In this document: positions 309 through 3,912 of the stretch, piece by piece
How the letters are laid out: every line of letters starts with the position of its first letter
Numbering within the stretch: position 1 is the first letter of the stretch
Assembly (NCBI GenBank): GCA_019084245.1
Contig: JAHRFE010000007.1
Coordinates: 62,001 to 126,000, forward strand
DNA: 64,000 nt
Source: Hoeflea sp.
Lineage (GTDB): Bacteria; Pseudomonadota; Alphaproteobacteria; Rhizobiales; Rhizobiaceae
Direction of reading: 5' to 3'
The notes under the pieces: generated by a model
Databases searched by the model: none
Told to the model about the DNA's origin: nothing
Seen by the model: only the letters and a program-made list of their open reading frames with translations
Made by a program: the position numbers and the translations under genes

Positions 309-1502
309 ATGAACATCCATGAATACCAGGCCAAGGCACTTCTGAAGTCCTATGGCGCGCCGGTGGCCGACGGGGTCGCCATCTTCTCCGCCGACGAGGC
401 GGAAGCGGCAGCGAAGACGTTGCCCGGTCCGCTTTATGTGGTCAAGAGCCAGATCCATGCCGGCGGCCGTGGCAAGGGCAAGTTCAAGGAACTCGGTCCC
501 GACGCCAAGGGCGGCGTGCGGCTGGCGTTTTCGATCGACGAGGCCAAGGCGCATGCCAAGGACATGCTCGGCAACACGCTGGTGACCAAGCAGACCGGCG
601 ATGCCGGCAAGGTGGTCAACCGGCTTTATATCGAGGACGGCGCCGACATCGAGCGCGAACTCTATCTGTCGATCCTGGTCGACCGCACCGTCGGCCAGGT
701 GGCCTTCGTGGTCTCCACCGAAGGCGGCATGGACATCGAGGCGGTCGCCCATGACACGCCCGAGAAGATCATCACGGTGGCCATCGATCCGATGGAAGGC
801 GTCACGAGCGCCGATCTCGCCAAGCTCAACGGCGCGCTGGAACTCAAGGGCGATGCCGCCAAGGATGGCGAGACGCTGTTTCCGATCCTCTACAAGGCCT
901 TCGTCGAAAAGGACATGGCGCTTCTGGAGGTCAACCCGCTGATCGTCATGAAGACCGGCCGTCTCCGCGTGCTCGACGCCAAGGTGTCGTTCGACAACAA
1001 CGCGCTGTTCCGCCACGCCGACATCGTCGAGCTTCGTGATCTCTCCGAAGAAGACGAGAAGGAAATCGAGGCCTCCAAGCATGACCTCGCCTATGTCGCG
1101 CTCGACGGCAATATCGGCTGCATGGTCAATGGCGCGGGCCTGGCGATGGCGACCATGGACATCATCAAGCTCTATGGCGAGGAGCCGGCGAACTTTCTCG
1201 ATGTCGGCGGCGGCGCATCCAAGGAAAAGGTCACCGCAGCGTTCAAGATCATCACCGCCGACCCGGCCGTCAAGGGCATCCTGGTCAACATCTTCGGCGG
1301 CATCATGAAATGCGATGTCATTGCCGAGGGCGTGGTCGCGGCTGTGAAAGAGGTGGGACTGAAGGTTCCGCTGGTGGTCCGGCTCGAAGGCACCAATGTG
1401 GCGCTCGGCAAGAAGATCATCAACGAAAGCGGCCTCGACGTGATCGCCGCCGACGATCTCGACGACGCGGCGCAGAAGATCGTCAAGGCAATCAGGGGAT
1501 AG
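309..1502 (+). CDS. sucC: Succinyl-CoA synthetase beta subunit (ADP-forming)
   Basis: The 397-residue product is full length for SucC. With SucD it converts succinyl-CoA plus ADP/GDP to succinate plus ATP/GTP in the TCA cycle. An ATP-grasp domain occupies the first ~240 residues, with [11 protein letters not shown] near 50-60 and the metal-binding EVNPLIV near 210. The C-terminal ligase domain carries [11 protein letters not shown] near 275, FLDVGGGAS near 295 and [15 protein letters not shown] near 325, which form the CoA/phosphate side of the active site. The ATG is preceded by AGGAG. Normally sucD follows directly; here the two are 1.08 kb apart because of inserted genes. Confidence 0.98.
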
Positions 1503-1505
1503 GGT

Positions 1506-1742
1506 TTGTATCGTGGCCTAACTGTTGCCGTTCTTCTCGCGGTTCTATCAGGTCTCATAGGGCTCCAATTGGCCTTGCCCAATTGCTCCGGCTTGAATGA
1601 AACTGACTGGATTTATTGTCAGGAGAGCGGGATGTTCATCGGACTGCTTCAGATAGGGCTTGTGATGGTTGGCGCGCTCCTGATTGTTTCAGCAATGGTC
1701 TGGCGTCGATTAGCGAATCACAACGTTGAACCGAAAGGATAG
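1506..1742 (+). CDS. Small two-helix membrane protein, unknown
   Basis: This 78-residue frame begins with TTG four bases after the sucC stop and has no family I recognise. Residues ~5-25 ([20 protein letters not shown]) and ~44-66 ([21 protein letters not shown]) are hydrophobic and probably span the membrane. The intervening loop holds two cysteines (NCS and YCQ) that would lie on the same side and could form a disulfide. The C-terminus is short and polar ([12 protein letters not shown]). Local base composition is more AT-rich than in sucC or sucD. The tight spacing suggests co-transcription with sucC. Because it uses a TTG start and is short, coding status is likely but not certain. Confidence 0.55.
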
Positions 1743-1835
1743 TCATTTTCGATGTCCATTCTCATCGACAAGTACACCAAGGTCGGTTCAGGCTTGGCCG
1801 GCAACTTTCACACCCGTGGTGACAAGGGGTTTATT

Positions 1836-1864
1836 TTGACTTTTTCGCCTCCACATAATATGTG
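1836..1864 (+). promoter_or_regulatory. Probable promoter of the vapBC-type module
   Basis: TTGACT at 1836-1841 matches five of six -35 consensus bases. It is followed after 17 bases by TATGTG at 1859-1864, a weak -10. The element lies in an AT-rich patch 24 bases before the antitoxin ATG and would let the module be transcribed independently of the suc operon. The -10 overlaps the palindromic half-sites described separately, as expected for autorepression. Confidence 0.45.
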
Positions 1865-1873
1865 TAGCACATA
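1852..1873 (+). promoter_or_regulatory. Alternating half-site operator upstream of the antitoxin
   Basis: Three 6-base half-sites alternate in orientation: CACATA (1852-1857), TATGTG (1859-1864) and CACATA (1868-1873), separated by one and three bases. Each neighbouring pair is a perfect inverted repeat. Ribbon-helix-helix antitoxins bind such short arrays to repress their own operon. Location over the putative -10 and just before the antitoxin gene fits that role; binding is inferred. Confidence 0.55.
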
Positions 1874-1887
1874 ACCCGTGTAAGGCC

Positions 1888-2145
1888 ATGACCAAGAACA
1901 TCACGCTCGCCATCGACGACGACCTGCTCGACAAGGCCCGGGTGCTTGCCGCCATGCGGCGGACAAGCGTCAACGAGATGGTGCGCGGATACCTGGAGCG
2001 GGTTGTTCGTGAAGAGGCCGAGAAGGATGAGGCGCGCGAAGAGCTTTTGAAGCTCATCGACGAGTCCGATGCAGATCTGGGTGACTGGCGCCCATCGCGC
2101 GCGGAGACCTATTCCGGAGAACCGCGATTTGACCGTTGGCGCTGA
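1888..2145 (+). CDS. VapB-like ribbon-helix-helix antitoxin
   Basis: The 85-residue product starts MTKNITLAIDDDLLDKARVL and continues with RRTSVNEMVRGYLERVV. This beta-strand/helix/helix pattern is that of ribbon-helix-helix antitoxins paired with PIN toxins (DUF6364/VapB type). The N-terminal ~45 residues should dimerise and bind the operator at 1852-1873. The acidic middle (EEAEKDEAREELLKLIDESDADLG) and the aromatic/basic tail (WRPSRAETYSGEPRFDRWR) would neutralise the toxin by occupying its active site. The toxin gene overlaps its end by 17 bases. It lies between sucC and sucD, an unusual place for such a module. Confidence 0.85.
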   Translation: MTKNITLAIDDDLLDKARVLAAMRRTSVNEMVRGYLERVVREEAEKDEAREELLKLIDESDADLGDWRPSRAETYSGEPRFDRWR

Positions 2146-2548
2146 TGTCCTGCTTGACACGAACATACTCATCTACGCCGCGCAGGGCGCCAAGGCCGAG
2201 CCGGAGAAGCGTGGCCGCGCCCGCCAGATCGTGGTCGAGGAAAACTACGCCACGTCCGCGCAAATCCTGGCTGAGTTCTATGCCAATGTCGTCAAGAAGG
2301 GTCTGCGCCCACTCGATCCGGAGCGCGCCGCGCACTGGGTCCGGGTGCTGGCCAAGAAGCCGTGTCAGGCGGTTGATTCCGCATTGGTGCGGGCCGGAAT
2401 CGAAATTGCACAGCGCTACAGGATTTCCTACTGGGACGGAGCGGTCATCGCTGCGGCCGAGCGCCTGGGATGCAAGACGCTCTATTCCGAAGATCTCAAT
2501 CATGGACAGATATATGGGTCTGTCAAAGTCATAAATCCTTTCCTTTGA
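2129..2548 (+). CDS. VapC-like PIN-domain ribonuclease toxin
   Basis: From a TTG start the product is 139 residues, the usual length of a VapC toxin. The PIN fold is shown by LLDTNILIYA near the N-terminus and by acidic residues spaced as in the family: D10, E49, D103 (in SYWDGAVIAAA) and D122 (in YSEDLNHGQ), which coordinate Mg2+ for RNA cleavage. I chose TTG 2129 because GGAG at 2116-2119 lies nine bases upstream and the PIN domain begins at once; an ATG at 2069 would add 20 residues with no family counterpart. The 17-base overlap with the antitoxin implies coupled translation. VapC toxins cleave tRNA or rRNA; the target here is unknown. Confidence 0.85.
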   Translation: MTVGADVLLDTNILIYAAQGAKAEPEKRGRARQIVVEENYATSAQILAEFYANVVKKGLRPLDPERAAHWVRVLAKKPCQAVDSALVRAGIEIAQRYRISYWDGAVIAAAERLGCKTLYSEDLNHGQIYGSVKVINPFL

Positions 2549-2578
2549 ATACCGAGTAGCTGGAGGCAAAAGCCCTAA

Positions 2579-3481
<903 letters not shown>

Positions 3482-3498: not shown

Positions 3499-3912
3499 AT
3501 GAGCGACGCCGTGCGCGAGATCCTGGACCGCTATTACGCCGCGCTGAAAGCGGGCGACGAGGCGGGCCTGCGCGGCGTCGTGTCGGACGATATTGAGGTC
3601 CATTACCCGGCGCCCGAGGGGCTTCTGCCCTGGGCCGGGGACTGGTCCGGAATTGAAGGCTTTCTCAAGTTCCTCAAGACCCTGGGCGATCATCTGGCGA
3701 TCGACAGGGTCGAGCCGCTTGCAGTCCATGTCGCCGGCGACACCGTGATCACGGTGCTCAGGGGCGAATGGACGGTGAAGGCCAGCGGGCGCACCGTGCG
3801 CACCGAGACAGTCAACATGTTCACGCTGCGCGACGGCAGAATCGCGCGATACCAGGTCTTCAGCGACACTGCAGCGCTGGCTATCGGGTTGGGAAGGCTT
3901 GCTGCGGCGTAA
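3499..3912 (+). CDS. NTF2-like / SnoaL-fold protein
   Basis: The 137-residue product has the pattern of the SnoaL-like NTF2 superfamily. It opens with helix VREILDRYYAALKAGDEAGL, then has a strand with DDIEVHYPAPEG, a W-rich turn (LPWAGDWSGIEG), and ends with the strand motif VNMFTLRDGRIARYQVFSDTAAL typical of the family. Such folds serve as small-molecule isomerases, hydrolases or binding domains, and the substrate cannot be told from sequence. The gene begins 17 bases after sucD behind GGAAG and lies 62 bases before sucA, so it is probably part of the suc transcript. Confidence 0.8.
   Translation: MSDAVREILDRYYAALKAGDEAGLRGVVSDDIEVHYPAPEGLLPWAGDWSGIEGFLKFLKTLGDHLAIDRVEPLAVHVAGDTVITVLRGEWTVKASGRTVRTETVNMFTLRDGRIARYQVFSDTAALAIGLGRLAAA

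Follow-up and report, generated by a model that had tools for sequence, protein, structure and literature searches.

The window analysed here is a 64,000-nt stretch of DNA that starts within the mdh–sucCDAB region of a rhizobial genome, in which sucC and sucD, encoding the two subunits of succinyl-CoA synthetase, are separated by 1,076 nt (Table 1). A sequence-only reading had placed a VapBC-type pair with its own promoter, together with a small membrane-protein gene, between them. The first part of this description is borne out, as an RHH gene and a PIN gene with a plausible promoter of their own part sucC from sucD. The second part stands less firmly: a hydrophobic 78-aa open reading frame (ORF) is present, but it is an orphan that hits nothing in Pfam or NCBIfam at E ≤ 0.1 and has just two weak matches among 120 other genomes (E = 0.0013 and 0.005), and it may, for want of convincing relatives, not be a true gene. 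Nine nucleotides downstream of its stop codon lies a feature absent from the earlier reading, a decayed copy of the start of sucD (local alignment score 64, against a maximum of 22 over 100 shuffles), the encoded similarity of which possibly extends to about position 1820. The window sucC terminates in AIRG-stop, compared with AIKGS-stop in two relatives lacking the toxin–antitoxin (TA) pair (G004 and G005). On its other side, sucD is separated from sucA by a SnoaL-like gene (3499–3909).

Table 1. Features of the sucC–sucD interval and its flanks (window coordinates)
Feature	Position	Strand	Basis
sucC, succinyl-CoA synthetase beta subunit, left flank	309..1502	+	Pfam ATP-grasp_2 and Ligase_CoA
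Orphan 78-aa ORF, TTG start, hydrophobic by eye; uncertain as a gene	1506..1742	+	ORF list
Decayed copy of first ~56 nt of sucD	1752..1804	+	Local alignment
Candidate sigma-70-type promoter, TTGACT-17 nt-TATGTG	1836..1864	+	Read from sequence
Operator-like inverted repeat, TATGTG-tag-CACATA, then ACCCGTGTA	1859..1882	+	Motif count across loci
Probable RHH antitoxin, 85 aa, DUF6364-type	1888..2145	+	PF19891 above cut-off; alignment with 12 homologues
Probable PIN-domain toxin, 139 aa	2129..2548	+	PF01850; acidic residues; structure model
30-nt spacer containing GGAGG	2549..2578	+	Sequence
sucD, succinyl-CoA synthetase alpha subunit, right flank, anchor of the cassette	2579..3481	+	Pfam CoA_binding and Ligase_CoA

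The toxin–antitoxin pair and its expression

The PIN protein matches PF01850 at 42.1 bits (cut-off 23.6) and retains, in alignment, the four conserved acidic residues (D10, E49, D103 and D122). The RHH protein matches PF19891 (DUF6364) at 30.5 bits (cut-off 27.3), while the RHH_1 and VapB_antitoxin models score under their cut-offs (13.6 bits on PF09957 VapB_antitoxin, cut-off 23.4) and no NCBIfam antitoxin model matches. This gene for a DNA-binding-type antitoxin sits directly upstream of the toxin gene; alignment suggests that the toxin starts at a TTG codon (2129) within the antitoxin gene, and the overlap of the two genes hinges on this start.

Among solved structures, the only sequence match to the toxin at E ≤ 1e-5 is PcrIIC1 (PDB 8wmm, E = 1.2e-9), a Cas9-associated PIN-fold protein. 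PcrIIC1 is also the closest structure to the predicted toxin fold (model pLDDT 93.7), with a TM score of 0.81 at 24% identity, followed by VapC and FitB structures (VapC20, VapC11 and FitB). It differs in its setting, the 8wmm chain having been solved within a Cas9 complex. Membership of the pair in a defence system was considered and rejected, since neither protein matches any PADLOC defence-system family at E ≤ 1. With VapBC/FitAB-type systems, the pair shares the antitoxin–toxin order, the overlap, an RHH antitoxin, a PIN toxin with four acidic residues, an operator-like repeat and a predicted fold that fits VapC20, VapC11, FitB and other VapC structures. It differs from them in having a DUF6364-type antitoxin that no curated VapB model reaches above its cut-off, and in being tied to a single operon junction across several orders. 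The pair is probably a VapBC-like, autoregulated type II TA system, in which the RHH protein would neutralise the PIN ribonuclease and repress the candidate promoter with its overlapping operator (1836–1882).

The hexamers of the candidate promoter have identical spacing in the window and in two congeners (G013 and G010). A consensus promoter scan listed two minus-strand sites as its sole entries and left out the candidate, because its second hexamer fails the rule of the scan. Upstream of the antitoxin gene, the motif TATGTGNNNCACATA occurs with at most two mismatches in 34 of 81 loci at the sucC/sucD site versus 0 of 23 loci elsewhere (shuffled sequences average 5.2 mismatches). Mesorhizobium-type loci carry, by eye, CACAGTTACACATATACTGTG in its place. 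The same CACAGTTACACATATACTGTG can be seen by eye in Acidobacteriota TA relatives that lie away from sucCD (L134, L140, L153, L156, L158 and L159).

Transcription is likely to read through the TA genes into sucD, because the spacer ahead of sucD is too short to hold a separate promoter and the scan listed no terminator-like site on the plus strand between 1480 and 2620. Transcripts begun upstream would thus run through the cassette into sucD, perhaps joined by transcripts from the TA promoter, and TA autoregulation might in this way act on sucD expression.

The sucC–sucD junction in related genomes

Both genes were located in 121 genomes, of which 113 have a measurable gap, taken from the last sucC sense codon to sucD. 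The count omits five genomes in which a gene is missing, partial or represented only by a paralogue (G007, G086, G088, G097 and G105) and three with the genes on different contigs (G079, G080 and G119). Within the genus, 14 of the 17 genomes with both genes placed show a gap of 9–10 nt, and the exceptions are the window (1079 nt), G010 (1437 nt) and G013 (809 nt). In the nearest TA-free congeners (G004 and G005), sucC ends in AAGGGATCCTGA and sucD begins after a further 7 nt; it is within this final stretch that the window and G013 part from them. By the comparison with relatives that the sequence-only reading had proposed as its refutation, the arrangement is an insertion, and the clean junction in 14 of 17 congeners rules out an ancestral state for the genus. 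A plasmid origin was rejected (the best listed plasmid match among 122 records has 37% identity, and all are under 60%), as was a phage origin (no phage match at E ≤ 1e-5). No mobility gene was recognised within the window interval and no integrase among its ORFs.

Beyond the genus, a gap of more than 150 nt occurs in 21 of 55 genomes from other genera of the family and in 17 of 41 from other families of the order. Overall, 41 of 113 relatives exceed 150 nt and 33 of 113 exceed 300 nt, and just 12 of the 41 hold this TA. The other occupants include a cupin (21 loci) and a DUF1579 protein (9 loci), counted in a set of 126 intervals that is enriched for TA carriers and includes 110 longer than 150 nt. 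All 17 Mesorhizobium-type intervals examined (L205–L210 and L096–L166) are occupied (388–1653 nt), six of them by other cassettes in place of this TA, with inserts of 388–1410 nt. Two loci (L109 and L110) combine the TA with a DUF1579 cassette adjoining sucD.

The neighbouring junctions offer a comparison. Outside the genus, sucC–sucD exceeds 300 nt in 30 of 96 genomes versus 7 of 93 for sucD–sucA; within the genus, sucD–sucA exceeds this length in 16 of the 17 genomes measured, compared with about 145 nt in most other genera. As this ordinary spacing lies close to the lower limit, sucD–sucA appears no emptier than sucC–sucD at 150 nt (59 of 110 versus 41 of 113). The sucA–sucB gap, compared in 85 genomes after dropping matches that start deep in sucB, exceeds 300 nt in 11, for which longer sucB N-termini are one reading. 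The sucC–sucD junction is prone to insertion and has several kinds of tenant, of which the TA is one; in the genomes of the order, no TA of comparable similarity was found at another place.

Within the interval, the TA keeps close to sucD. A median of 23 nt, stop codon included, separates the last toxin codon from the sucD start in 80 loci, the distance staying within 100 nt in 75 of them and measuring 516–1010 nt in the other five. On the opposite side, sucC and the antitoxin gene are a median of 437 nt and up to 1842 nt apart (77 loci, 27 of them at or below 150 nt), so that accessory genes mostly gather on the sucC side.

Site fidelity of the toxin

When the window toxin alone was used as a single-sequence query against the 121 genomes, 28 matches were listed, of which the 13 best (its own included, E up to 7e-26) adjoin sucD by their coordinates and the other 15 lie elsewhere. 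A profile built from those 13 toxins, all from the sucC/sucD site, was then run against the order, in 397 genomes, at E ≤ 1e-15, with no more than 10 candidates scored in most of them; such a profile favours site toxins, a bias from which the single-sequence search of the 121 genomes is free. It returned 80 matches in 66 genomes with a bimodal distribution of scores, 20 at 165 bits or more and 60 at 113 bits or less. All 20 high-scoring matches lie beside sucD (15 in newly fetched loci, L165–L179, and five known from earlier searches: the window, G120, G117, G037 and G079), while none of the 25 loci fetched among the 60 weaker matches is near sucC or sucD. Carriers of the cassette thus make up 20 of the 397 genomes. 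In G079 and G459, the stretch with the toxin does not include sucC, and in G227 a stop codon interrupts the toxin frame. In the 2.3-Mb genome G079, the TA lies beside sucD with tolQR-like genes upstream and sucC on a separate contig (L083).

A wider search covered 84,980 named species genomes, and the best 80 of 385 relatives were kept. Of these 80, 62 flank sucC and/or sucD (56 both, four sucD only and two sucC only), 61 of them from Alphaproteobacteria and one unclassified. The 61 divide into 40 Hyphomicrobiales, 16 Caulobacterales, one each from Rhodobacterales and Maricaulales, and three without a named order. The remaining 18 of the best 80 come from Acidobacteriota (13), Gammaproteobacteria (three), Planctomycetota (one) and a short alphaproteobacterial contig (L149), which is the sole relative from this class among them without sucC or sucD. 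Among 337 genomes sampled across the class, no match but that of the window itself reached 165 bits, and the 16 other matches listed have no sucC or sucD within their loci of about 3.4 kb; the cassette is therefore rare or absent in many orders.

The near-exclusive placement of close relatives within Alphaproteobacteria suggests that the TA spreads by swapping with that spot and not by free jumping. The earlier idea of a module bound to its locus thus holds in spirit, and to a degree well beyond what the sequence alone could reveal, with 20 of 20 high-scoring matches beside sucD and 62 of the best 80 at sucC/sucD. The related proposal that the TA locks the locus in place finds no support in that form: the junction of close relatives is clean or holds a different cassette, and at an unchanged site one toxin has given way to another.

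It could be argued that the junction is a general hotspot for accessory genes, with the TA an ordinary occupant and nothing special in itself. The recurrence of the cupin and DUF1579 families and the small share of TA carriers among the long intervals fit this account, which explains the place but not the absence of the toxin clade elsewhere in the same genomes, and we regard it as somewhat doubtful. The hotspots described by Oliveira et al. 2017 (PMC5635113) lack mobile elements and are exchanged via flanking core genes. The sucC–sucD junction shares with them variable content between fixed core genes, a lack of recognised mobility genes and exchange. It differs from them in being a single small operon junction, kept over several orders, to which one toxin clade is confined, and in having flanks with no local rise in identity near the junction.

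Exchange of toxins and spread of the cassette

The window toxin is 70% identical to a toxin from Fulvimarina and 69% identical to one from Brevundimonas, which belongs to another order than the window genome. Its identity to the toxins of its congeners is 41% (G013) and 42% (G010), against 97% and 92%, respectively, for the sucD N-termini. Across 79 loci, toxin identity correlates weakly with identity over the first 140 residues of sucD (Spearman 0.31; the pairs are not independent). At the DNA level, the window and G013 are 92–100% identical over 1859–1978, where the operator and the DNA-binding end of the antitoxin are encoded, 48–75% identical over 1979–2578, and 90% identical again in sucD. 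This mosaic suggests that the toxin was replaced together with the toxin-binding part of the antitoxin, behind a promoter that was retained; the G013 genome is 9% contaminated, and the sucC and sucD of the contig in question fit the genus. Taken together, these comparisons show that toxin variants have been exchanged while their place remained unchanged. Pairs of TA carriers show no special likeness of their flanks near the junction, either in the window's genus or in Mesorhizobium, and imported flanks were rejected for lack of a local rise in identity. The Mesorhizobium carriers are more alike along much of sucC too, and all six TA-free genomes there carry other inserts.

In a toxin tree that omits seven duplicates and 14 of 25 weak matches, site and non-site labels change four times, compared with a mean of 26 after shuffling. 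A group of five site toxins, with those of G010 and G013 among them, stands on a separate long branch next to non-site toxins, so that one or several arrivals at the junction are possible.

We consider it probable that the TA is a VapBC-like cassette belonging to one genomic place and travelling with the start of sucD by recombination. The unit that spreads would consist of the TA plus the sucD start, moved by housekeeping recombination in which sucD supplies the right arm, and the left arm comes from sucC, from the operator region or from an illegitimate join. In the history of the window, an accessory ORF would have stood ahead of an older sucD start, before the TA arrived with a new one and left the older start as a remnant (1752–1804). 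Several points tell against this reading: no import tract shows in the flanks, the search profile was made from site toxins, the five toxins on the long branch leave room for more than one arrival, L149 carries neither gene, and G013 is contaminated.

Such a second sucD start is clearly above shuffles in four of the 110 intervals over 150 nt and in none of the other 106. The four carriers come from three orders (the window, G010 (L031), the Brevundimonas locus L085 and the Rhodobacterales locus L141). All four intervals bear the TA, as do most of the 110. Each remnant begins at the ATG and is nearest to the sucD of its own host, the simplest reading of which is that in these four lineages a second sucD start came along with the TA, which left the original one behind.

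The repeats could also be attachment-site-like, in which case a recombination system encoded elsewhere would insert, near nt 53 of sucD, a cassette that brings a replacement sucD start. Their occurrence in three orders fits this, as do the two well-preserved copies, which under stricter scoring stop at sucD nt 52 (L085) and 53 (L141) and on which a site-specific break may be founded. The decayed copies end at 56 (window, with gaps) and 66 (L031), and laxer scoring moves the ends to 163 (L085, with a weak tail), 53 (L141), 75 (window) and 71 (L031). Because the decayed copies end differently, a common end is insecure; moreover, no integrase was found in the intervals looked at, and 106 of 110 intervals lack a remnant. 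Site-specific insertion is, on this evidence, unlikely, and its stronger form, with the first ~53 nt of sucD as the attachment site of a dedicated recombination activity encoded elsewhere, is quite unlikely. If true, an essential TCA-cycle gene would be rebuilt at every insertion and would come under the influence of the TA promoter.

Vertical inheritance, with a single entry into the junction in an early alphaproteobacterium and mostly losses since, would suit the few label changes on the tree, the starred branches compatible with one origin and the similar toxins within the Mesorhizobium and within the Brevundimonas groups, but it is very improbable given the greater toxin identity to another order than within the genus, the mosaic inside the TA, the weak correlation with sucD and the need for losses to restore a coupled 9–10 nt junction repeatedly.

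Chromosomal TA modules are usually viewed as drifting selfish elements or as relics of plasmids and phages. In the genomes examined here, one toxin clade is confined to the operon junction of an essential heterodimer over several orders while its toxins are exchanged, and no description of a TA between sucC and sucD was recognised in the open-access PubMed Central literature. The persistence and spread of chromosomal TA systems thus become testable at one known address, with the clean, TA-free junctions of sister species as natural controls. Over six groups, dN/dS values of 0.06–0.21 for the toxins and 0.06–0.24 for the antitoxins indicate that both are under purifying selection, and synonymous divergence is higher in the toxin than in sucD in all six.
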